DNA of 64,000 nucleotides from Olsenella sp. (GTDB lineage: Bacteria; Actinomycetota; Coriobacteriia; Coriobacteriales; Atopobiaceae). The notes beneath the pieces were generated by a model that was given only the letters and a program-made list of their open reading frames with translations, did not search any database and was not told the origin of the DNA. The stretch is taken from positions 1 through 64,000 of the forward strand of contig JALCMG010000005.1 of assembly GCA_022648325.1 (NCBI GenBank). The letters run 5' to 3'. A program made the position numbers and the translations under genes. Positions 12,727-26,110 of the stretch are shown piece by piece (position 1 is the stretch's first letter; each line of letters starts with the position of its first letter).

Positions 12727-13386
12727 ATGGGATTCGTCGACTTCATCGCCAACCTGCTGCGCGATCCGCGTGCTGCCATCGCCGGCTGGATTGCGGCTGG
12801 CCCTGTCACCGCGTATGGATTTGTGTTTCTCATCATCTTCATCGAGACGGGCGTGGTGTTCTTCCCGTTTCTGCCGGGCGATTCGCTGCTGTTTGCCTCT
12901 GGCTTCTTTGCGCAGGGCGGCGGGTTCAACATCTTTGTGCTTTTCGGCGTTGCGTGGGCTGCGGCCATCCTGGGCGATCAGTGCAACTTCATGATTGGTC
13001 ACTTTTTTGGCACGCGGATTGTGGCGTCGGGCAAGGTCAAGGCCATGACACCCGAGCGCATGGAGAAGAGCGAGAAGTTCCTGGAGAAGTGGGGCCACGT
13101 GGCTATTTTCCTTGGGCGCTTCTTCCCGTTTATTCGCACGTTCGTGCCGTTTATCGCCGGCATGGGCGGTATGCACTGGCGCAACTTTGTGGTGTTCAAC
13201 GTGCTAGGCGGCATTACCTGGTCCACGCTGTTCACGCTGCTGGGGTACTTCTTTGGCGGCATTCCCGCGGTGCAGGAGCACTTCGAGCTGGTTGTTGTTG
13301 GGATCATCCTGGTTTCCGTGATTCCCGCGGTTGTCGGGGCGATTCGCGCGCGCATGCATGCGAAGAAGGCCGCCGACGCGGAGTAG
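12727..13386 (+). CDS. DedA-family membrane protein
   Basis: A 219-residue inner-membrane protein of the DedA/SNARE-associated (VTT) superfamily, some members of which flip undecaprenyl phosphate or phospholipids. Typical blocks are ETGVVFFPFLPGDSLLFASG near residues 38-57 and FLGRFFPFIRTFVPFIAGMGGM at about 122-143, the latter holding the conserved arginines. GGGAG precedes ATG. It stands alone downstream of the SRP RNA. The specific lipid cannot be inferred. The IS-derived region begins directly after its stop. Confidence 0.9.
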   Translation: MGFVDFIANLLRDPRAAIAGWIAAGPVTAYGFVFLIIFIETGVVFFPFLPGDSLLFASGFFAQGGGFNIFVLFGVAWAAAILGDQCNFMIGHFFGTRIVASGKVKAMTPERMEKSEKFLEKWGHVAIFLGRFFPFIRTFVPFIAGMGGMHWRNFVVFNVLGGITWSTLFTLLGYFFGGIPAVQEHFELVVVGIILVSVIPAVVGAIRARMHAKKAADAE

Positions 13387-13462
13387 GGCGGCGCTCGGAG
13401 CGCCGAGCGGATGCCGGGCCGGTGCCGACTTGGCGTGGGGTTGTCGCCGTGCGCCGACTCGA

Positions 13463-13889
13463 CGCCGATTCCGGACGGTTAACCTCGTGCGGAGTCAGGC
13501 GGTCGTTGCACCGGCCTCCGATGCCTGAGACAGTAGCTCCGCCACCGCCTCCGCGGGGGTCCTCCACCCCAGCGTCTCCCTCGGCCTCGTCCGGCCTCGC
13601 CATGGCAGCCGCCTCCGTGCGCCGTCCCGGGCGCGAGCGGGCGCGCCCGCCACGCCGGCTGCCGCAACCGGCGACCGAGTGCGGCAGGCGCCCCCCCGAC
13701 CACTCCCCCACGGCGGTCACGCCGCAGCCCGCGAGCCCGGCCGCCCCTCTCGCGCCCATGCCCTCCTCGAGGGCGTAGAGCGCGAGCCCCACCTCGTCCC
13801 TGCCGTACATGCGGACTCCTCTCCGGACCACGCCCGTGGTCCAACATCGAGTCCGCGCCCCCCGATGGTGCCGCCGATTTTGGACGGTT
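13463..13889. repeat. direct repeats CGCCGATT(CC/TT)GGACGGTT
   Basis: An 18-nt sequence occurs at 13463-13480 and, with two changes, at 13872-13889 in the same orientation; a partial third copy (TTTGGACGGTT) lies at 14732-14742. They bracket the IS3-like fragment and the IS256-type element and look like repeated insertion-sequence ends. The interval 13387-13462 shows nothing else. Confidence 0.5.
13481..13810 (-). pseudogene. IS3-type transposase OrfA fragment
   Basis: The minus-strand frame starting at ATG 13810 opens with MYGRDEVGLALYALEEGM. A helix-turn-helix-like stretch follows (GARGAAGLAGCGVTAVGEW), then a basic segment (SRRGGRARSRPGRR). This resembles the DNA-binding OrfA of IS3-like elements as found in coriobacteria. 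The similarity fades after about 75 residues, no OrfB/integrase part is present, and the frame runs on without a natural end into dedA. I treat it as a truncated remnant; the family name is from memory and tentative. Confidence 0.4.
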
Positions 13890-13890
13890 G

Positions 13891-14724
13891 TGTGCCGAAT
13901 GTTGGTGTTAGCCCGCCCGGGGCGGTGCCCCCCCAGAGCCGATGCTCACATCCTACGGCATCCGCGTCACGCCGCCCTCCCCGCAGACTCGATGGCCTCG
14001 GCGACGATCAGGCGCGCCCTCTCCTCGACCTCCGGCGAGGGCTCCGCGTGGGCCCGCGGGGACCGGAGCCCCCCAACAGCGACGCCGCGTCGATGAAGCC
14101 CATGGACATCCACTCCTCGTCCACGCCTGTGAGGGCCGAGCCCACGAGCCGCCCCATCGCCCCCGCGGGCGGGAGGACGGACACGGCCCTGGCCCTGCGC
14201 CTGATCTCCTCGTCGGCGCACCCGGGCCCCACGAGGCGCCTCGGGCCGCCCCCCCCGCAGGCGATCGCGGTGACGGCGGCCGCCTCCATCTTCCTGGCGG
14301 AGAGGCCCCGGACGTAGGCCTCGCGCGCGCAGGCGACCGTCGCCCGGTCGACGCGGGAGCAGGGCCTCGGGAGCCCCTCGGGGAAGTGGCTGCCCTCCCC
14401 GGGCCTCGGCATCCTCGGCGTGGCCTCCCCGACGACGGCGGGCAGCCTCCGCTCGCGGTAGCCGTTCCTCCGGTTGCCCTCGCCGCGCAGCTCGTCGGCC
14501 TGGGCGTCCATCACCTGGTTGAGGGCCGACTCGAGGGCCCTCCTCGCCAGCTCGGTGAGGTCGATCGTCCCGTCGTCCCTGACGGCGAGCCCCTCCAGCA
14601 GGCCCCGTTCCTGCAGGGTGTCCATGGTGGCCGTTCCCTTCTCCTCGAACCGGCGTTTCTGCGAACATCGATTCTAGGGGTGCGGCCACCGCCCCGCCGG
14701 GGGCTGACACCACGGTTCGGCACA
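13891..14724 (-). mobile_element. internally deleted IS256-type element
   Basis: The ends are inverted repeats. The left reads inward TGTGCCGAATGTTGGTGTTA from 13891, and the right, on the minus strand from 14724, reads TGTGCCGAACCGTGGTGTCA; similarity continues to about 35 bases. The 834-bp length is well below the roughly 1.3-1.4 kb of intact IS256 elements. No matching target duplication is seen at the immediate flanks (GACGGTTG against TGATCGGT). Confidence 0.65.
14008..14625 (-). pseudogene. IS256-family transposase, catalytic core deleted
   Basis: The 205-residue frame begins like an IS256/mutator transposase: ALESALNQVMDAQADELRGE, then RRNGYRERRLPAVVGEATPRMPRPGEGSHFP and EAYVRGLSARKMEAA. 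It then jumps to a C-terminal stretch typical of the end of these proteins (EEIRRRARAVSVLPPAGAMGRLVGSAL and DEEWMSMGF). About 200 central residues, including the DDE catalytic domain, are missing between roughly residues 120 and 140. The protein cannot transpose by itself, though the intact ends could be mobilised in trans. Confidence 0.7.
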
Positions 14725-14800
14725 TGATCGGTTTGGACGGTTAGTCGCCCCTAAACGGCGAAATCCCGCGTCAAAGCAACCGGCGGCGGGTTATTTGGAT

Positions 14801-14814
14801 GTCTATAAGGTACT
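14801..14814. repeat. left 14-bp direct repeat flanking the IS30-type element
   Basis: GTCTATAAGGTACT is identical to 16519-16532 and abuts the element's left end, as a target-site duplication would. Confidence 0.85.
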
Positions 14815-16518
14815 GGTTGATTGCCAAAGCTAGTGCAGCTTCGGCAGGGTAAGTGCAGCTGACAGAGTAGATGCAGGAAGACAGTGCCGTTCCCGGCGTT
14901 GCGGGATGCGCTTTTGGCGCAGCAGGCGCAGGAGACCGACCGGTCGGCACCGTTTCGCGGCATGGCCCATGGTGACCGCATCCGCCCGTGTCAGACTAAG
15001 TGCAGCCTTACCGCCTGGTCCTTGTCCCCGCCCGCGCGCGTCGCCCGTGTGGTTTGCTTGTCAGCGTTTGGTGCCGTCGCGCTCGCGCCTGAGCCGTTCG
15101 ACGAGCTCCGGTCGCGTCTCGACCTCGTCCGGCGGGACGAGCGCGAGACCGAGGCCCTCGAGGAGCGAGGCCGGCAGCGCCACCCTCGCGAGGGCCATCG
15201 GCGAGGCGTCGCCGATGGCCCTTCTCAGGCTCGAGTTCACGTTGGAGCAGACGCCGGCGAGGATCCATGCGTCAAGTCCCAGGCCGTCGATCGAGGTGCC
15301 CTTGGGGATGACCTTCCTCAGCTCGACGTGGTTCTTCTCGCAGGCGCCCTTCTGGTCGGGGCGCTGGGGGCCGGCGCAGAAGACGCGGCACCTCCCGTTC
15401 CGCTCGATGCCGGCGATGTCGTCGAACTCGCGTCCCCGGTCGGTCAGGATGAGCCCGAAGACCCTGCGGAAGGCCTCGGGTCCGCCCAGGAGGCCCTCCA
15501 GCCAGTCGGGGGCGGCGACGACGTGGGCGCGGTCGTGCCGCCCGAGCAGGACGTAGGCCTGGAACCTGATCTGGACGAAGTGGAGCGTGAGCAGGGCCTG
15601 GGAGTCCCCCTCGGCGCCCTCCACGCAGTCCATCTCGACCGCTTGCGCTCCCCCTCGCCGGGGGCGAGGTAGTCGGCGTAGGTGCGGCCCTCGTAGAAGG
15701 CCGCCTCGCGGCGGCTCGCGCGCTTCCCGCCGCGCCTCTTGTACCTGACCTTCTTGCGCAGGTCCATCTTAGCCACGTCGATGTCCTCGTTCTCGACGTG
15801 GCGGTAGAAGGAGTGCTCCGAGCGGGGGAGGTCGTCCCTGGAGGCGAAGACGTGGTGGACCGACTGGCCCTTGGCGGGCCCCGCCTTGACCTCCCGGGCC
15901 AGGAACGCCATCTCGCGGCCGGTCATGTCCAGGCCCCGCCTCGATTCCGCGAGGCGCTCGTCGGCCTTGGCCTGCGCCATCCTGGCCGAGTAGGCGAACT
16001 GCTCCAGGGGGCAGGTCGGGCGCCTCTCGCAGCCGTTGCAGGCCCATGGCGCCCGATGCGTGCGCCCACACCGCTGGCGCTCGTAGTCCGCGCACCCCGC
16101 CCCCCCGCACATCCTCGCGCATGAGGAGCACTTCCTCCTGCAGTCGGGGTCGCATATTCTCCGCCTCGCGCAGGCCTTCCTGTGGGCGCAGTCGTTCCTG
16201 AGCGAGCAGTTGCGCCTGAGCTCGCGGGAGACGCTCGTGGCGTCGACGCCGAGTCCCTCCGCCATCCAGGCGGGGCTCCTCCCCTCGACGACCCCGTTCT
16301 CGATTTCCCTGCGCATCTCGAGGGTGAGGTGGGCGTAGTGCTTTGCTGTCGCCATGTTTCTCACCGCCTTCCTGGGCGGCGCGCAGAGCAGTGGTCACAG
16401 CGTATGACAAATCACGTTCGCAATGGGCGCGGAAGGCAAGGTCGCGGGAGCACCGGCGGCACTCGGTCCCTATGACAGACCTACTGCAGCCCCTCCTGCA
16501 CTAACTTTGTCAATCAAG
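14815..16518 (-). mobile_element. IS30-type insertion sequence, 1704 bp
   Basis: Imperfect inverted ends are visible. Left 14816-14838 reads GTTGATTGCCAAAGCTAG-TGCAG; right 16496-16518, on the minus strand, reads CTTGATTGACAAAGTTAG-TGCAG. The element is framed by identical 14-bp direct repeats, and GTGCAG motifs recur inside both ends. Between 14839 and 15060 there is only non-coding IS sequence. Its transposase gene is frameshifted, so it is probably inactive, yet the sharp duplications imply a fairly recent insertion. Confidence 0.85.
15061..16355 (-). pseudogene. IS30-family transposase, frameshifted
   Basis: The N-terminal part (ATG 16355) has the IS30 helix-turn-helix (HYAHLTLEMRREIENGVVEG, VDATSVSRELRRNCS). 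A cysteine-rich insert follows with paired cysteines (CAHRKACARRRICDPDCRRKC onward), common in actinobacterial IS30 relatives. The DDE core lies in another frame that ends at 15061: D in EMDCVEG, D in LTDRGREF, E in KNHVELRKVIP. Frames switch near 15640-15660, within the runs of C/G that encode APGEGE, consistent with a one-base indel. Without the shift the protein would be about 430 residues. Sequencing error or programmed shifting are alternatives. Confidence 0.8.
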
Positions 16519-16532
16519 GTCTATAAGGTACT
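16519..16532. repeat. right 14-bp direct repeat flanking the IS30-type element
   Basis: GTCTATAAGGTACT, identical to 14801-14814. Joining the two copies restores the presumed pre-insertion site. Confidence 0.85.
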
Positions 16533-16561
16533 TATCTAGCCGGCGTCAGATCTCAACAAAA

Positions 16562-16622
16562 GACGATCTATTTTCAACCGTATGTGGTACCACTAAACAT
16601 ATAGATAGAAATTTAGATCGTC
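16562..16622. promoter_or_regulatory. inverted repeats upstream of the RiPP precursor
   Basis: GACGATCTA (16562-16570) and its exact complement TAGATCGTC (16614-16622) flank the perfect 10-bp palindrome GTGGTACCAC (16584-16593) in an AT-rich stretch ending 9 bases before AAGGAGGTG. This is the expected place for the cassette's promoter and operators. No convincing -35/-10 pair is seen; TATAGA near 16601 is a possible -10. Confidence 0.45.
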
Positions 16623-16646
16623 AATCAGCTAAGGAGGTGCTCGAGT

Positions 16647-16733
16647 ATGGAATGGATCATTAAGCCAGTTGAAGATGAGGATGTTTTGGGTAGGTGCCAT
16701 GTGATGTCTCCGTGCAAAAGGGGGCTGGACTGA
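16647..16733 (+). CDS. candidate RiPP precursor peptide, two cysteines
   Basis: A 28-residue ORF with an ideal ribosome site (AAGGAGGTG at 16631-16639, 7 bases before ATG). It begins MEWIIKP, has an acidic segment (EDED, residues 9-12), then a glycine and the core-like C-terminus GRCHVMSPCKRGLD with C17 and C23 spaced C-x5-C. It lies 48 bases upstream of a radical SAM/SPASM maturase followed by an ABC exporter. The hydrophobic WIIKP start with a charged leader recalls Cys-containing precursors paired with SPASM enzymes in clostridia (from memory). Thioether crosslinking of the cysteines, as in ranthipeptides or sactipeptides, is an inference. The ORF is easily missed because of its size. Confidence 0.72.
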   Translation: MEWIIKPVEDEDVLGRCHVMSPCKRGLD

Positions 16734-16755
16734 CGGGTGTTTTTGCGCCCCTTTG
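16716..16755 (+). terminator. possible attenuator between precursor and maturase
   Basis: AAAGGGG (16717-16723) can pair with CCCCTTT (16748-16754), overlapping the precursor's last codons and enclosing a GTTTTTG run. A partial terminator here would give more precursor mRNA than maturase mRNA. The hairpin lacks a following T-tract, so its strength is uncertain. Confidence 0.35.
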
Positions 16756-16781
16756 ATTGCGGACCAGAGTGATTGGCCGAT

Positions 16782-18083
16782 ATGAAGTTATCTCAGTATA
16801 ATTATGTTCGGAAACAGAAAGATGGAGTGCTCCTCTTCAATACGAACAACAGAGGGCTGCTTCGGCTGGACTCTGAGTTTGCGGCTAAGTATAGAGAATT
16901 GGAGACGGGCCGCATTGATTCTTTGGATGACTTCACCGGCGCTCTATTCGCTAATGGATTTATAGTCGATGATGGTATCGACGAATTTGAGGCGCTTCTC
17001 GTCAAGAACCTGTGCTCTAGATACAACGAATCTAGGGCACAGGTTACTATTGCGCCAACGACGGGATGCAACTTCGCTTGCCCATATTGCTTCGAGGCCG
17101 GGCTGGCTGCTCTTACGATGTCCGGAGAGCGTGCGGCTGCTGTGGCACGCTTCGTGTCGGAAGAGTTTGGGAAGGCCAAAGTCCTGATGGTGAACTGGTA
17201 TGGGGGTGAGCCATTACTCTGTCTCGACCGTATCGCCCAATTGACAGAACTGATCAGAGGGGCTCTTCCACCTGAATGTAAGTACGAGGCATCCATAGTT
17301 ACCAATGGCTATCATCTGACAGAAAGAGCTGTCAAGGTGTTGTGCGATTGTGGCGTTCGGGAGGCCCAAGTTACCATTGACGGCGCGGAGCGATCGCATG
17401 ACCTGAGAAGAATACCAAGCAATGGAGAGCCTACCTACGAGAGGATTCTGCATAATATCAAGTCTGCTGTCGATGACATTGGAATAACGATTCGCGTGAA
17501 TGTGGATGCAGATAATTCTGCAGATCTTGATGGGTTGCTGATAGATATCGACAGGATGGCCCTCGCAGGGAAGGTGGGCATATATCTAGCCATGGTTGAT
17601 GATGCACTAGGTGACGACGGCCATAGTAGTACACGTTACCTAGATGCGAAGGCTTTTTCTACTGTTGAATCCCTGTTTTACCGGAGCGCGATTGAGCTTG
17701 GGTTTGATGTTGGGCTTTTCAGGGGGTCGGAACCAGGGATTTGCTCGGCGATAGCCCTCGGCTCTGCGGTGATAGACCCAGAGGGAAGTCTGTATAAGTG
17801 TTGGGACGAGATGGGCTGTTCAGATAAGAGTTATGACACTGTTGATGCGCCGCGGTTCTCATCTTTGAACAGTTCACGCTGGTTGAGGTACGTCCCTGGC
17901 CAGGAAGGAAAATGTCACCACTGTGTCTACTTTCCGCTCTGCTGGGGAGGATGTCCCCGCGAGGCGCTGGAAGGTCGAAAAGACATGTGCGGCCCAATCA
18001 AATACAACCTTGATGACAAGATTGACCTCCTGGCCCTTCAGAGCGCACGTTCGCGGGAGACGTCCGCAGGAGGGTGCCTATGA
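16782..18083 (+). CDS. radical SAM/SPASM peptide maturase
   Basis: A 433-residue enzyme. Residues 1-85 form a small N-terminal domain resembling a precursor-recognition (RRE/PqqD-like) winged helix. The radical SAM cluster motif is C96-x3-C100-x2-C103 (CNFACPYC). The C-terminal SPASM domain follows the standard pattern for auxiliary clusters: C...G-x4-C (ICSA...GSLYKC), then C-x2-C-x5-C-x3-C (CHHCVYFPLCWGGC) and a final C in DMCGP. It most likely installs a crosslink in the peptide encoded upstream. I prefer ATG 16782; TTG 16773 is possible, and the ribosome site is weak for both. Base composition is clearly more AT-rich than neighbours, with AGA and ATA codons, suggesting transfer. It overlaps the exporter gene by four bases. 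Confidence 0.9.
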   Translation: MKLSQYNYVRKQKDGVLLFNTNNRGLLRLDSEFAAKYRELETGRIDSLDDFTGALFANGFIVDDGIDEFEALLVKNLCSRYNESRAQVTIAPTTGCNFACPYCFEAGLAALTMSGERAAAVARFVSEEFGKAKVLMVNWYGGEPLLCLDRIAQLTELIRGALPPECKYEASIVTNGYHLTERAVKVLCDCGVREAQVTIDGAERSHDLRRIPSNGEPTYERILHNIKSAVDDIGITIRVNVDADNSADLDGLLIDIDRMALAGKVGIYLAMVDDALGDDGHSSTRYLDAKAFSTVESLFYRSAIELGFDVGLFRGSEPGICSAIALGSAVIDPEGSLYKCWDEMGCSDKSYDTVDAPRFSSLNSSRWLRYVPGQEGKCHHCVYFPLCWGGCPREALEGRKDMCGPIKYNLDDKIDLLALQSARSRETSAGGCL

Positions 18084-19708
18084 GGGCGCTTATCGCCGCG
18101 TGCTGGTCCAGCATCGATGATCATGGCGGGTTCGTGAGATATCTCCTCCTGAGCCTTTTTGCCGCGTTGCTGGGAAACCTCACGCCCCTGCTTGCCGGGC
18201 TTATGATCAACATGACGCTGGCGTCCGGTGACGTTGTGCGCAGCATAGCGCTTGCGGGAGCCGTCCTGGCGGCGTTGTGTTGTGTCTCGAATCTCTGCTC
18301 GTACAAGGCAGTGCTGCTCTACACCTACCTTCAGGCGGACTCGTCGTTCGAGCTTGACCTGCGTGCGACCGGACACATTCAGCACCTCCCGCACAGGTTC
18401 TTTAATGACTTCGATCCCTCGTACTGGCGCAAGAGGCTCGACGACGACACCAACGGCCTCTCGCTCTTCTTCCTCCAGGCGCTCACGGGCGTCGGGGAAA
18501 ATGTCATCGCCGTTGCCATTGCGGCGGTGTCGCTGTTCATGGTGAGCCCGCTCGTGTGCATCCTCTGCCTTGTGTCAACCGCGGCGTCGAACCTCTCCTA
18601 TCGCATCTTTAGCGAGAAGTTCGCCAAGTCCCAGCAGGCCTTTGTTGAGGAGATGGCGCGCTACTCCGCCATCGCGCTCTGGCAGCTGGCGAAAATCCCC
18701 TTCATTCGCCGGAACGTCCTGTTTGAGCGAAGCGCCGATGAGATGAGGCGCTCCTACTCGGCCGTCCGTCCGGCCATGTACAAGACCAACTGCATCGCTG
18801 CGCGGATGACCCTGTTTGCAGATGTCACGCGGAGCCTCTCGCTTGCCATCGTCCTCATAGTCGCGGCGGTGGAGGTTGCCTCGGGACACATAGAGGCGGG
18901 CTTCGTTGCCACGGTGTACGGGTACTTTACGACGCTGGTGACGTCCATGGAGTACTTTCTCAAGGTGGGACGGGAATACCAGCAGGCGAAAGTCAACCTC
19001 GGCCGCCTCACGGAGCTATGGGAGAGGAAGGTCGAGGACGTCGGAGAGGCGTGCGTCCGTGGCATCAAGACCGTGCGCATGCGCGATGTGACCTGCGAGT
19101 TGGAGGCGGGCAGGACCACCTTTGACGGAGTCTCCGCAACGTTTGCCAAAGGGAGGCTCTATGGCATCGTGGGGCCAAACGGCAGCGGGAAGAGCACGCT
19201 CATGACGCTGCTGTCTGGAGACCTTCGGGGATGCTGGACGGGCGAAGTGACGCTTGACGGGACGCCGATCGACGACATCGACCAGTACGATCTGCGAACG
19301 CATGAGATCGGCTATGTCGAGCAGGATCCCGTGATGATACGCGGCACGCTGAGGGACAACCTGACTCTGCTGTGCGATGGCCCGGTGAGCGACGAGCGGC
19401 TTCTCGACGTGATGCGCGAGGTGGGGCTTGACGCAATCGCCAAGGTGCCTGACGCCCTTGGCATGCAGCTTGGGGAAGGCGGTCGGCAGCTCTCGGGAGG
19501 AGAGGGTCAGAAGGTTGCCATCGCACGGGTGATTCTCAAAGATCCTGGCGTGGTCTTCCTGGACGAGCCGACGTCCGCCTTGGACGAGGGTTCGAGGGAA
19601 AGGTTGCTTGCCGTTCTGGATGATCTCAAGCGCTCGCGCATCGTGATTACCGTCTCGCATGACCCCGAGCTCCTGGCGGCGTGCGACGAGGTGCTCCAGA
19701 TGTCGTAG
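18080..19708 (+). CDS. ABC exporter (fused permease and ATPase)
   Basis: A 542-residue half-transporter. Residues 1-300 are a type I exporter membrane domain with about six helices. The ATPase has Walker A GPNGSGKST (366-374), signature LSGGEGQK, Walker B VVFLDEPTS and the H-loop SHD. There is no N-terminal C39 peptidase, so leader removal, if any, needs another protease. ATG overlaps the maturase stop (ATGA), with AGGAGG just upstream; a GTG two codons earlier is possible. It presumably works as a homodimer exporting the modified peptide, or conferring self-protection. It looks more GC-rich than the maturase gene. Confidence 0.88.
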   Translation: MRALIAACWSSIDDHGGFVRYLLLSLFAALLGNLTPLLAGLMINMTLASGDVVRSIALAGAVLAALCCVSNLCSYKAVLLYTYLQADSSFELDLRATGHIQHLPHRFFNDFDPSYWRKRLDDDTNGLSLFFLQALTGVGENVIAVAIAAVSLFMVSPLVCILCLVSTAASNLSYRIFSEKFAKSQQAFVEEMARYSAIALWQLAKIPFIRRNVLFERSADEMRRSYSAVRPAMYKTNCIAARMTLFADVTRSLSLAIVLIVAAVEVASGHIEAGFVATVYGYFTTLVTSMEYFLKVGREYQQAKVNLGRLTELWERKVEDVGEACVRGIKTVRMRDVTCELEAGRTTFDGVSATFAKGRLYGIVGPNGSGKSTLMTLLSGDLRGCWTGEVTLDGTPIDDIDQYDLRTHEIGYVEQDPVMIRGTLRDNLTLLCDGPVSDERLLDVMREVGLDAIAKVPDALGMQLGEGGRQLSGGEGQKVAIARVILKDPGVVFLDEPTSALDEGSRERLLAVLDDLKRSRIVITVSHDPELLAACDEVLQMS

Positions 19709-19896
19709 CGCTGCCCGTAGCGGCATCGCCCTCGGCCGAGGCCCCGGTGACCGTTGCCGCTGCTGGTTGGCACCTGCAATCTGCGACGGCTAACTAACCG
19801 GATGCGACCCTCCTTGCTTGCCTCTCTCGCGCTCCCCTACCCTTATCGTCGAACAAGCGGCCCTCGGGGCCGGAGGGAACGTTAGGGGAGTGGGGA

Positions 19897-22848
19897 ATGG
19901 CTAAAAACACAACGAGAAGGAAGTTCATCGGTTCGACCATTGCCTCGGTTGGCCTGCTGGGCATCACCGCCGCCGCAAACGTTGCTGCGAACAAGTTCAG
20001 CTCGCTTCTCGACCACTACGTTGGCGGACGCCCCGCAACGGTCGAGAAGGTCCAGGGCTCCGAGGACTGGGACGCGGAGTACTACACCTCTGACTACCGC
20101 GGCCGCAAGCAGGCGACCGAGGCCGCAAACGAGCTGGTCACCGAGATCGAGGGCGAGGGCATCGTCCTCATGAAGAACGACAAGAACGCCCTGCCGCTGT
20201 CCACCTCCGAGACCGTGAGTATGCTTGGCCGCTATGCGGCAGACCCGGTCTACGGCGGTGCTGGCTCCGGTACCGTTGACGCAAGCTCCTGCATCAACTT
20301 CTACCAGGGCATCAGCCAGGCGGGCTTCACCATCAACGACACCGCCTACAACTGGATCAACGACAACTACTCCAACTACGCCAAGGCCGCCATCACCATG
20401 GACAGCCCGTCCACGGCGTCCTACTACATTGGCGAGATTCCTTGGTCCGACTACAGCTCTGACGCCCAGACGTCCATCAAGGGCACCGTTGGCCTGGTCT
20501 TCATTGGTCGTGGTGGCGGCGAGGGCGGCGACCTCTCGCGCGACCTCAAGGCAGACGTCGAGTCCGGCGTCTCCGAGAACTTCACCGCCAACAGCGAGAC
20601 GGCCAACTACGAGGACGGCCAGCACGAGCTTGAGCTCACCGCCGAGGAGAAGAGCGTCATCGCGGCTGCCAAGTCTGCGTGCACCAAGGTCATCGCGGTG
20701 CTCAACCTCTCCACGACGATGGAGCTTGGTCCCCTGGTCTCTGGTGACTACGAGGTCGACGCTATCCTTGAGGTTGGATCGATTGGAGCCACCGGTGCCG
20801 CGGCGCTTGGTCAGGTCCTTGCCGGCACGGTGAGCCCCTCCGGCAAGACCACCGACATCTGGGCTGCCGACTTCACGGCAGACCCCACCTTCAAGAACTT
20901 TGGCGGCAAGCGCTACACCGACATCGAGGGCTACTATCCCCAGAAGTCCACGGGCAACGCGTACTTCGTCGAGTACGCCGAGGGCCTCTACTACGGCTAC
21001 CGCTACTACGAGACGGCAGCTGCGGAGGCCGAGGCGGGCAACTACTCCGGCTTCGACTACGACAGCGCCGTGGTGTTCCCGTTTGGCTATGGCCTCTCGT
21101 ACACCACGTTCTCGCAGACGCTCGACTCGGTGAATGCGGATGAGGAGAACGTCAAGGTTGAGGTCACGGTCTCCAACACGGGCTCCGTTGCCGGCAAGGA
21201 CGTCGTGGAGGTGTACTACTCGGCACCCTATACTGCAGGCGGGCTCGAGAAGGCCGCCGTCGTCCTGGGCGGCTTTGCCAAGACCGATGCGCTTGACCCC
21301 GGCGCGAGCCAGCAGGTCACCATCGAGTTCCCCGTGCGCGACATGGCCTCCTACAGCTCCGACGACCAGGCATACGTGCTCGATGCGGGCGACTACGTGA
21401 TTAGCCTGCGCACCGACTCCCACACTGTGGTGGACCAGAAGACCGTGACGCTCTCTGCCAAGAAGTACACGACCGACTCCGCCACCGAGGCGCAGATCTC
21501 CAACAAGTTCGACGACATGACGGAGTACATGGAGAAGAACGTCAAGACCATGTCCCGCAAGGACCTCAAGGGGACCTTCCCCGAGGAGGCGGCCGACAAG
21601 AGCGCTGCCGATTGTGGCGTGGAGCTTGTGGAATGGAAGCTCGAGGACCACGAGAACCCCAACGCCACCATGCCCACCACCGGCGCGGACAACGGCCTGC
21701 AGCTCATCGACATGCGTGGCCAGGACTTTGACTCCGAGGCGTGGAACGACATCCTCGACGAGCTTACCGTGGAGGAGATGGCGACCTGCCTGAACGATGA
21801 CGCCTACAACACCCCCGAGGTCGAGTCCGTGGGCAAGCCAGCTACCGTCGACCCCGATGGCCCCGCTGGCTTCACCTCGCTCACTGGCCCTACCGGCAAC
21901 TGCTCCTACTGCTCCGAGGTGGTCATGGCGCAGACGTGGAACGTGGAGCTCATGCGCCGCATGGGCCAGATGGTTGGCCAGGAGGCGCTGGCTTCCGGTT
22001 ACAACGGCTGGTATGCGCCTGCCATGAACACGCACCGCTCGCCCTTCGCCGGCCGCAACTTTGAGTACTACTCCGAGGACCCGCTGCTTGCCGGCAAGAT
22101 CGACGCGGCCGTGGTGGGCGGCGCCGCCGAGAACGGCTGCTATGCCTACATCAAGCACTTTGCGATGAACGACCAGGAGTCCTACCGCGTGCAGCACGTC
22201 TGCACCTGGGCCACCGAGCAGGTCGCGCGCGAGATCTACCTGCGCCCCTTCGAGACCACCGTCAAGGAGGCCACGTACGAGATGAAGTACATCTCGGACG
22301 ACAAGGGCACAGTCTCCACCAAGACCATGCCCGGCTGCACCGGCGTGATGAGTTCCTTCAACTACGTGGGCGCCGAGTGGGCCGGCGGTCGCAAGAGCCT
22401 GTGCACCGGCGTCCTGCGCGACGAGTGGGGCTTCAAGGGCATGGTCATCACGGACTTCGAGCTCTATGACTACATGAACAAGAACCAGGCCATCTATGCC
22501 GGCACCGACCTTCAGCTCACCTACTCCGCCATGACTGGCGAGTACCAGGGCACCAACACGGCGACCGTTGTCTCGGCGATGCGCGAGTCCATGCATCGTG
22601 TGCTTTACACCGTTGCAAACTCCAACGCCATGAACGGCATGGTGCCGGGCTCCAAGATCACCTACGGCGTTGCCCCGTGGCAGTATGGCCTGTGGGGAGG
22701 CTCGGCGGCGCTCGTTGCGCTGGCTGCGTTCTTTGGCTACAAGGCCGTCAAGAACCACAAGCTCATGAGGGCCGAGGGCAAGGACGGCGACGCTGCGGAC
22801 GTCCCCGAGGTCAAGAAGGGCGACAAGAAGGCGCCTGGCGAGAAGTAG
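19897..22848 (+). CDS. membrane-anchored, circularly permuted GH3 beta-glucosidase
   Basis: A 983-residue glycoside hydrolase family 3 protein with permuted domain order. After an N-terminal segment with a twin-arginine-like start (TRRKFIG) and hydrophobic stretch comes the GH3 C-terminal domain (GEGIVLMKNDKNALPL, about 85-100). A fibronectin-like domain follows (FPFGYGLSYTTF, NTGSVAGKDVVEVY). The catalytic N-terminal-type barrel comes last, with WYAPAMNTHRSPFAGRNFEYY, IKHFAMNDQE and the probable nucleophile D854 in VITDFE. A final hydrophobic helix (WGGSAALVALAAFFGY) and Lys-rich tail suggest membrane anchoring. It likely releases glucose from beta-glucosides outside the cell. AGGGGAG precedes ATG. 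A paralogue lies at 28664. Confidence 0.88.
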   Translation: MAKNTTRRKFIGSTIASVGLLGITAAANVAANKFSSLLDHYVGGRPATVEKVQGSEDWDAEYYTSDYRGRKQATEAANELVTEIEGEGIVLMKNDKNALPLSTSETVSMLGRYAADPVYGGAGSGTVDASSCINFYQGISQAGFTINDTAYNWINDNYSNYAKAAITMDSPSTASYYIGEIPWSDYSSDAQTSIKGTVGLVFIGRGGGEGGDLSRDLKADVESGVSENFTANSETANYEDGQHELELTAEEKSVIAAAKSACTKVIAVLNLSTTMELGPLVSGDYEVDAILEVGSIGATGAAALGQVLAGTVSPSGKTTDIWAADFTADPTFKNFGGKRYTDIEGYYPQKSTGNAYFVEYAEGLYYGYRYYETAAAEAEAGNYSGFDYDSAVVFPFGYGLSYTTFSQTLDSVNADEENVKVEVTVSNTGSVAGKDVVEVYYSAPYTAGGLEKAAVVLGGFAKTDALDPGASQQVTIEFPVRDMASYSSDDQAYVLDAGDYVISLRTDSHTVVDQKTVTLSAKKYTTDSATEAQISNKFDDMTEYMEKNVKTMSRKDLKGTFPEEAADKSAADCGVELVEWKLEDHENPNATMPTTGADNGLQLIDMRGQDFDSEAWNDILDELTVEEMATCLNDDAYNTPEVESVGKPATVDPDGPAGFTSLTGPTGNCSYCSEVVMAQTWNVELMRRMGQMVGQEALASGYNGWYAPAMNTHRSPFAGRNFEYYSEDPLLAGKIDAAVVGGAAENGCYAYIKHFAMNDQESYRVQHVCTWATEQVAREIYLRPFETTVKEATYEMKYISDDKGTVSTKTMPGCTGVMSSFNYVGAEWAGGRKSLCTGVLRDEWGFKGMVITDFELYDYMNKNQAIYAGTDLQLTYSAMTGEYQGTNTATVVSAMRESMHRVLYTVANSNAMNGMVPGSKITYGVAPWQYGLWGGSAALVALAAFFGYKAVKNHKLMRAEGKDGDAADVPEVKKGDKKAPGEK

Positions 22849-23766: not shown

Positions 23767-24624
23767 TTAGAACGCGGGGAGGACGTCCTGGTCGTACGTG
23801 TCGGAGAGGTACTGCTTGAAGTCGTCGCTCGTGAGGACGCTGACCAGCGCGGCAATGCGGTCGTCGTCCTTCTTGTCGGGCGTGGTCACGATGTAGTTGG
23901 CGTACTGCTCGACGGCCTTGCCCTCCTTGGACTCCACGGCCACGGCGTCCTTCACGTGGAAGCCGGCCTCGATGGCGTAGTTGCCGTTGATGACGGCAAA
24001 GTCCACGTCCTGGAGCTGGCGTGGGACCGCCGCCGCCTCGACCTCAACAAACTTCAGGTTGTGGGGGTTCTCGGCGATGTCCACCGGCGTGGCCTTGAGG
24101 TTGTCGGGGTCCTTGAGCGTGATGAGGTTCTCCTGCTGGAGGAGAAGGAGTGCGCGGCCCTCGTTGGTGGGGTCATTGGGAACTGCAATCTGCGCGCCGT
24201 CCGCAATGTTGGCGAGGTCGGATGACTTGCCGGCGTAGATGCCAAACGGCTCGTAGTGGATGGCGGCCACGCCCACCAGATCCGTGCCGTTCTCCTCGTT
24301 GTAGTTGTTGAGGTAGTTGATGTGCTGGAAGTAGTTGGCGTCGACCTCGCCCGAGCTGGTCACCTGGTTGGGGATGATGTAGTCGGTGTACTCCTTGGTC
24401 TTAAGGTCGATGCCCTGCTCTTTGAGCTTGGGTGCGGCAAAGTTGTTGAGAATCTCTGCGTGGGGCGAAGGGGACGCGGCAACCGTGAGGGTCTGGCTCT
24501 GCGCCGAGTCGCTGGCGGCGGAGCTGCTGGAAGACGAGCTGGAGCCGGAGTTCCCGCAGGCGGCGAGGGTGGTTGCGGCAAGTGCGGCGAGACCGGTTCC
24601 AATGAAGTTCCTTCTGGTGAGCAT
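23767..24624 (-). CDS. metQ: methionine ABC transporter lipoprotein
   Basis: A 285-residue NlpA/MetQ-type substrate-binding lipoprotein. The signal peptide ends in the lipobox LAAC with C23 as the lipidated residue, followed by a Ser-rich linker (about 24-40). Mature blocks SPHAEILNNFAAPKLKEQGIDL, VDANYFQH and AQIAVPNDPTNEGRALLLL are typical. The N-terminal TRRNFIG resembles a twin-arginine motif, unusual but not rare for actinobacterial lipoproteins. AAAGGA precedes ATG. It is the last gene of the metN-metI-metQ transcript, 75 bases after metI. D- or L-methionine is the likely cargo. Confidence 0.9.
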   Translation of the reverse strand: MLTRRNFIGTGLAALAATTLAACGNSGSSSSSSSSAASDSAQSQTLTVAASPSPHAEILNNFAAPKLKEQGIDLKTKEYTDYIIPNQVTSSGEVDANYFQHINYLNNYNEENGTDLVGVAAIHYEPFGIYAGKSSDLANIADGAQIAVPNDPTNEGRALLLLQQENLITLKDPDNLKATPVDIAENPHNLKFVEVEAAAVPRQLQDVDFAVINGNYAIEAGFHVKDAVAVESKEGKAVEQYANYIVTTPDKKDDDRIAALVSVLTSDDFKQYLSDTYDQDVLPAF

Positions 24625-24699
24625 GAGGGGTTCCTTTCTGTTGGAAGAAATGATGAGAGTGGTGGTAGGGGTGCTGCCGAGAAGCGCAACGCGTTCCTG

Positions 24700-25363
24700 C
24701 TAGCGGTGGTCGATCTTCTTGGCGATGGCGTCGCAGGTGCTCTGGATCACCTGCACGAGGATGACGATGAGTACGAGCGTGGCGATCATGACCTCGTCCT
24801 GGTAGCGGTAGTAGCCGTAACGGATGGCGATGTCGCCCAGGCCGCCCGCGCCAACCGCGCCAGCGATGGCTGTGTAGCCCAGAACCGCGATGAGCGTGAT
24901 TGAGATGCCGCGGACAATGGAGGGCAGGGCCTCGGGGAGCAGGGCAGAGACCACGATGCGCGGGATTGACGCCCCGCAGGCCTCGGCGGCCTCGATGGCG
25001 TCGCGCGGGACCTCGGCCAGGGACTGCTCGACCATGCGCGCCACAAACGGCGTGGTAGAGAGCACCAGGGGAGGAATCACGCCCTGCACGCCGGTGGTGG
25101 TGCTCACCAGGGCGCGCGTGACCGGGAACATCGAGACCAGAAGGATGATGAACGGGATGGAGCGCCCGATGTTCACCACCCAGCCCAGCACGGCGTTCAG
25201 GGTGCGCATGGGGTGAAGCCCGCGCGGTGCGGTGACGCAGAGAACGACGCCCAGGAAGATGCCAATGAGGTACGAGAAGGCCGTCGACACGAAGAGCATG
25301 ACCAGCGTGTCGGCAAGTCCCTCGCCAAGAAGCGAGCCGTACTGGGCAAAGAAGGACGCGAGG

Positions 25364-25371
<8 letters not shown>
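24700..25371 (-). CDS. metI: methionine ABC transporter permease
   Basis: A 223-residue permease with about five transmembrane helices. The cytoplasmic coupling loop is EAAEACGASIPRIVVSALLPEALPSI, the EAA motif of importers, and the region GRSIPFIILLVSMFPVTRALV is characteristic of MetI. AAAGGAGAG precedes ATG, which overlaps the end of metN by eight bases, so translation is coupled. It forms the membrane channel of the MetNIQ importer. Confidence 0.92.

Positions 25372-26110
<739 letters not shown>

Follow-up and report, generated by a model that had tools for sequence, protein, structure and literature searches.

A candidate two-cysteine RiPP cassette related to the Clo7bot/TIGR04463 systems in an Olsenella genome

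Does a 28-residue open reading frame (ORF) lying in front of genes for a radical S-adenosylmethionine (SAM)/SPASM enzyme and an ATP-binding cassette (ABC) exporter encode the substrate of that enzyme, and what would the product be? The question is raised by a three-gene locus in the first 64,000 nucleotides of contig JALCMG010000005.1 of Olsenella sp., a gut-type actinobacterium; this whole stretch is hereafter termed the window. A first-pass annotation had taken the locus for an apparently new cassette producing a ribosomally synthesized and post-translationally modified peptide (RiPP). On sequence and predicted structure, the best reading is a minimal two-cysteine relative of the Clo7bot/TIGR04463 RiPP systems with an uncatalogued peptide. 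The novelty claim thus stands for the sequence of the peptide, which matches no catalogued family, but not for the system, because the enzyme falls within a broad known Clo7bot/TIGR04463-like clade.

Recurrence of the precursor and its core

The precursor ORF and its ribosome site are present as first annotated (Table 1). The core consists of C17 H18 V19 M20 S21 P22 C23 K24 R25 G26 L27 D28; its two cysteines have the C-x5-C spacing noted earlier, and it contains no Trp, Tyr or Phe. Searches with the window maturase, which covered 140 genomes from the family, 398 from the class and 296 from the phylum, turned up a complete three-gene cassette, in the same order and with a 28-residue precursor, at two further independent Coriobacteriia loci. 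In one of these (G049, locus L033, also recovered as L054 on the Coriobacteriales metagenome-assembled contig JAQXQO010000127.1), the maturase and exporter are 33% and 38% identical to those of the window, and the precursor MDVVISPERIDQLTVDVSCHVSHPCKRD lies directly upstream of the maturase with the ribosome site GAGGGGAGGG. In the other (G327, locus L120, from another family of the order), the corresponding identities are 35% and 42%, and the precursor MEIVVKAAADVVEVACNVMHPCKRGLDK stands behind AAAGGAGG.

All three independent precursors are exactly 28 residues long and share the core C-[HN]-V-x-x-P-C-K-R, in which the position of His18 is Asn in G327. Across this nine-residue core, the window and G049 share 14 of 18 nucleotides at codon positions 1 and 2 and none of nine at third positions; this scrambling of third positions alongside retention of the others suggests selection on the peptide. 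The strict core DNA pattern occurs in two of the 398 class genomes and never in reversed controls. A looser pattern occurs in one of 67 genomes of the G327 family and in seven of 397 genomes of the order, where four matches are the precursors described here and three are due to chance. The three chance matches, in G023, G047 and G721, have an internal stop or lie antisense or in another frame. These pattern searches revealed no second copy of the core in the window genome. As the core recurs at the same place in two independent cassettes, the ORF is, by its sequence, more than a chance occurrence; a conserved CHVMSPC-like core with variable flanks beside maturase homologues is what the first-pass annotation had named as support.

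The leader start M-x-x-[IV]-[IV]-x-[PA] is common to the window, G049, G327 and Cys-rich relatives (MNWVIDP, MSWIVKP), and is loosely matched by the Clo7bot precursor start (MKFIKKP). An acidic residue precedes the first Cys of the cores, and each of the three has an Asp after the second Cys, at spacings of x4, x2 and x4. None of the database models, the Clo7bot peptide model (score 31) included, matched any of the three 28-residue peptides. Common gene callers have a floor of 90 nucleotides; the precursor gene, at 87 nucleotides including the stop, is just under it, and such genes are therefore easily overlooked.

Table 1. Positions of the cassette features in the window
Feature	Position	Strand	Remarks
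Upstream region common to the window and the near-identical G052 copy	16536-16646	+	includes AAGGAGG
Ribosome site AAGGAGG	16631-16637	+	nine bases 5' of precursor ATG
Precursor ORF	16647-16733	+	28 residues, MEWIIKPVEDEDVLGRCHVMSPCKRGLD
Precursor leader, residues 1-16	16647-16694	+	MEWIIKPVEDEDVLGR
Precursor core plus stop	16695-16733	+	CHVMSPCKRGLD
Weak terminator-like hairpin between precursor and maturase genes	16735-16750	+	z -0.86
Radical SAM/SPASM maturase	16782-18083	+	433 residues; PF04055, TIGR04085, AlphaFold2 model
Maturase N-terminal RiPP recognition element (RRE) domain, residues 1-85	16782-17036	+	predicted fold
Radical SAM cluster motif CNFACPYC	17067-17090	+	cysteines invariant in 20 homologues
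SPASM domain, seven cysteines	17742-17990	+	invariant columns in 20 homologues
ABC exporter (membrane and ATPase regions, no peptidase domain)	18080-19708	+	main Pfam domains ABC_membrane, ABC_tran

In G049, a very stable hairpin (17 pairs, z -5.4) lies between the precursor and maturase genes (L033 7370-7450, minus strand), and in G327 a hairpin (z -2.9) lies within the start of the maturase gene. Such structures may serve to yield more precursor than enzyme. A conserved hairpin 3' of the precursor was considered and abandoned, because G049 and G327 have strong structures whereas that of the window is weak.

Maturase and exporter in relation to named families

The maturase ORF opens at TTG 16773, but ATG 16782 (MKLSQYN) is the better start because it aligns with the MKxSxYN start of homologues. 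The complete cluster motifs described in the first-pass annotation are borne out: the CxxxCxxC motif (residues 96-103) and the seven SPASM cysteines (C321, C340, C378, C381, C387, C391 and C403) are all invariant among 20 homologues, and the domain scores exceed their cut-offs (PF04055, 56.5 vs 29.5 bits; TIGR04085 SPASM, 45 vs 27 bits). An AlphaFold2 model built on these 20 homologues (predicted local distance difference test score, pLDDT, 89) matches CteB (5wgg, Z 28.0, 392 residues) and TigE (8vpo, Z 24.7) over the full length; anSME (Z 28.8) and ChlB also match, but not over the N-terminal domain, and the C-C bond-forming SuiB and the epimerase EpeE match at a lower Z of 18-20. CteB is a thioether-forming ranthipeptide synthase, the N-terminal RRE of which binds the leader (PMC8326336). 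Residues 1-85 alone are predicted with a pLDDT of 92, and their top fold matches are TigE (Z 8.3), TbiB1 (7.8), 6jx3 (6.4) and the PbtF RRE (6.2), along with MccB and ThcOx. As the top matches (Z 6-8) are RiPP leader-binding domains or enzymes bearing them, structure prediction and fold search uphold the earlier assignment of an RRE-like domain.

The exporter ATG (18080) lies inside the end of the maturase gene (18083), giving the four-base overlap first described. According to a domain search, none of the three exporters (window, G327 and G049) has a C39 peptidase domain, so the exporter lacks the N-terminal peptidase of C39-type cleavage/export transporters. Likewise, as had been stated for the window cassette, no separate protease or tailoring enzyme is present within any of the three cassettes.

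The window maturase has the features of RRE-containing radical SAM/SPASM RiPP maturases, namely CxxxCxxC, the seven-Cys SPASM domain, a predicted RRE fold and an adjacent conserved precursor, but by NCBIfam cut-offs it belongs to no named maturase family. TIGR04463 is the best-scoring family for the maturases of both the window (239.7 bits, less than half of the curated cut-off of 525) and G049 (258 bits). The window enzyme also stays below the cut-offs of the Clo7bot maturase (TIGR04334, 221.9 vs 600 bits), PapB (91.4 vs 340 bits) and the SCIFF maturase (TIGR03974, 52 vs 425 bits). The closest sequence families, TIGR04463, Clo7bot, CefB and PapB, act on Cys-rich peptides. No paper naming TIGR04463 or Clo7bot was found in the literature searched.

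The Clo7bot system (TIGR04333/TIGR04334), compared here through a locus on the Paraclostridium plasmid L127 with peptides starting MKFIKKP, shares with the window a leader of the form M-x-[FYW]-[IV]-[KIV]-K-P, an RRE-SPASM maturase beside the peptide gene and an ABC transporter downstream. However, Clo7bot peptides are Cys-rich, 41-53 residues long and encoded in tandem gene arrays, whereas the window has one gene for a peptide of 28 residues with two cysteines, which looks like a Clo7bot-type leader bearing a single C-x5-C unit. The SCIFF/CteB system has the same RRE-radical SAM-SPASM architecture and gives a full-length fold match, but has six cysteines in about 45 residues of precursor. PapB, which makes freyrasin, is a related enzyme, and the Asp after the second Cys in the three cores recalls its substrate; yet the Cys-Asp spacing of x4 or x2 departs from the Cys-x3-Asp/Glu motif of PapB.

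The nearest maturases (40-42% identical to that of the window) occur in genomes of the G327 family, in larger operons. Two of these operons encode Cys-rich precursors with leaders of the same kind, MNWVIDPCSNVQGGGGGCRNYHPCSRCSCFGVYVHF (G280) and MSWIVKPSYVDPGGGCNGYCKTFCGARTCVNNCSKNFCLVNL (G256), and differ from the window in having peptides of 36-42 residues with 6-7 cysteines, extra upstream transporter genes and an exporter of another clade. The G280 precursor holds CRNYHPCSR, in which C-x5-C is followed by x-R as in the window core. Within this analysis, the window precursor is the smallest peptide seen for this enzyme clade, with one C-x5-C unit vs six or more cysteines, and would therefore be a clean substrate for learning which bond is formed by the TIGR04463/Clo7bot-like maturases, a large group. 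Another short variant is found in G095 (L040 5280-5580), where two adjacent precursors, MKAIVKPAETVEKLAKAPERLVAAASGCSECRDLPCGRNSR and MKVIVKPVEAVEKLAKAPEKLIAASHGCDPLRDFPCGRNTRS, precede a 29% identical maturase and carry PCGR near the C terminus.

Proposed product and alternative explanations

It is quite probable, judging from the genes and their predicted products, that the locus is a complete minimal RiPP cassette consisting of a precursor, an RRE-SPASM cross-linking enzyme and an ABC exporter. The strong ribosome site would direct translation of the 28-residue precursor, the M-x-W-I-I-K-P leader would dock on the N-terminal RRE of the maturase, and the radical cluster and auxiliary clusters would modify the core C-[HN]-V-x-x-P-C-K-R. 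The 5'-deoxyadenosyl radical would act on the core, and an auxiliary cluster is proposed to interact with a Cys sulfur, as in the general mechanism (PMC8326336, PMC9413430). Thioether cross-linking is likely: one or both Cys sulfurs would most likely be joined to a nearby residue with a loss of 2 Da per bond, either at C-alpha as in sactipeptides or at C-beta/gamma as in ranthipeptides. As PapB tolerates Cys-x0-6-Asp (PMC9413430), and as the cores have Asp after the second Cys and an acidic residue before the first, a Cys-to-Asp link of the PapB type is possible, although this is a guess. The ABC protein would then pump the product out; because the cassette encodes no protease, the leader would be either kept or cut by a protease encoded elsewhere in the genome.

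Several points weigh against this reading. The acceptor residues are not readable from the sequence, and only three independent precursors are known. The cassette contains no protease, immunity gene, regulator or receptor, so that maturation may need genes elsewhere. In addition, the free maturase tree places the window enzyme with that of G280, an enzyme of the Cys-rich type (support 99/98), and not with the other two-Cys enzymes; G049 groups with G327 (95/90), and the branches are long. Constraining the three two-Cys maturases to one clade is not rejected (approximately unbiased test, p-AU 0.298), and the exporters of the three cassettes, 38-42% identical, form one clade (95/100). Either a single old cassette or an exchange of maturases fits these trees, and the exporter appears to be the gene that tracks the core peptide.

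Among the alternatives, the most substantial retains the cassette and changes the chemistry: the enzyme might form a C-C bond at His/Asn or Val, epimerize a residue or carry out a different radical reaction, leaving the cysteines free, disulfide-bonded or metal-binding. SPASM enzymes also form C-C and C-O bonds (PMC8326336), and SuiB and EpeE are among the structural matches; yet the named families closest in sequence have Cys-rich peptides as substrates, CteB is one of the best fold matches over the full length, both cysteines are invariant whereas His is replaced in G327, and the core lacks residues for aromatic cross-linking. Such chemistry is accordingly unlikely. Inactivity of the cassette, as a recently inserted remnant, would suit its position inside a genome-specific insert with transposase remnants, the lack of the maturase in congeners and the broken copy in G052, but is improbable given that the three window genes are intact with all catalytic cysteines kept and that neither G049 nor G327 has a damaged cassette.

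The near-fixed core and the very short precursor also resemble those of cofactor precursors, so that the product might be a cofactor-like peptide kept inside the cell, comparable to pyrroloquinoline quinone (PQQ) or mycofactocin, with the transporter serving something else. This is very improbable, since the exporter gene overlaps the maturase gene, the exporters of the three two-Cys cassettes form their own clade, and no dependent oxidoreductase lies near the cassette. Least credible of all is the proposal that the ORF is a chance or regulatory upstream ORF and that the maturase acts on a different peptide: the shortness of the ORF and the lack of a database family match would permit it, but the strong ribosome site, the absence of other core copies in the genome and the recurrence of the conserved core, with scrambled third positions, at the equivalent place in two other lineages weigh strongly against it.

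Pairwise identity among the maturases of the three cassettes is only 31-35%, and a core nearly fixed across such enzymes suggests that the product probably has a constant partner (a signal, a metal or one conserved target), a diversifying bacteriocin being less likely; a conserved target of this kind can be sought. Ranthipeptides have been tied to cell-density signalling in clostridia (Chen et al., 2020, as cited in the review PMC8102284). A metal-chelator reading was down-weighted as His18 is Asn in G327. A bolder and tentative view, possible but doubtful, is that the three-gene cassette scattered across Coriobacteriia makes a two-Cys RiPP with the nearly fixed pharmacophore C-[HN]-V-x-x-P-C-K-R and a cross-link pattern unlike those of known sacti- and ranthipeptides, and that this peptide signals between cells or binds a metal or a target.

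Genomic setting and distribution

The copy in G052, from another genus of the same family, corresponds to window positions 16536-21033 at 97.3% identity (L032 4577-9073). Its precursor is identical, but the copy is decaying: a frameshift interrupts the maturase gene, and the adjacent glycosidase is truncated. The homology ends abruptly at 16536, adjoining different insertion sequences (ISs) or remnants in each genome, and a search of the family genomes found the maturase in none of seven congeners; these results suggest that the cassette occurs sporadically and was probably acquired by horizontal transfer. The glycosidase gene (19897-22848) is found in the seven congeners at 87-92% identity (partial in G121), and the region equivalent to 13398-19755 is absent or replaced in the four congeners with flanks compared.

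The genome-specific insert (13398-19755) lies between a DedA-like gene (12727-13386) and the GH3-like glycosidase gene. Among congeners, G116 and G117 carry a CapA-like gene at this site, G116 and G118 have another GH3-like gene accompanied by two-component genes, G117 has an IS21-like element, and in G120 the site is only about 1.1 kb long; the gap between the DedA-like and GH3-like genes is a variable site. To the left of the window cassette, the minus strand carries the remnant of a Mutator-family transposase and an IS30-like transposase that is broken into two frames (14008-14625 and 15061-16364). The G052 copy abuts an IS481-like transposase (L032 8300-9975), which appears to interrupt a gene downstream of an ABC transporter operon. 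The G327 cassette is close to metNIQ-like methionine uptake genes (L120 10615-12948), as is that of the window (23767-26110, minus strand), possibly by coincidence.

Relatives outside Coriobacteriia mostly have GG-leader or NHLP-like precursors without this core, and this wider clade thus provides no evidence for the window peptide. Protein-level scans of genome contigs and viral contigs gave no close relative, and a plasmid DNA search gave no match; viral contigs and phage records contain only 21-36% identical relatives, some in short unverified records. PADLOC matches to defence systems (viperin-like, mads) were set aside as generic domain matches. The window genome encodes a second SPASM maturase (L002, G000:C20:30044-31012), nearest to PapB (178 bits vs a cut-off of 340), and many genomes of two other groups in the family, genera g31 and g35, each encode between two and six SPASM maturases that are divergent paralogues.

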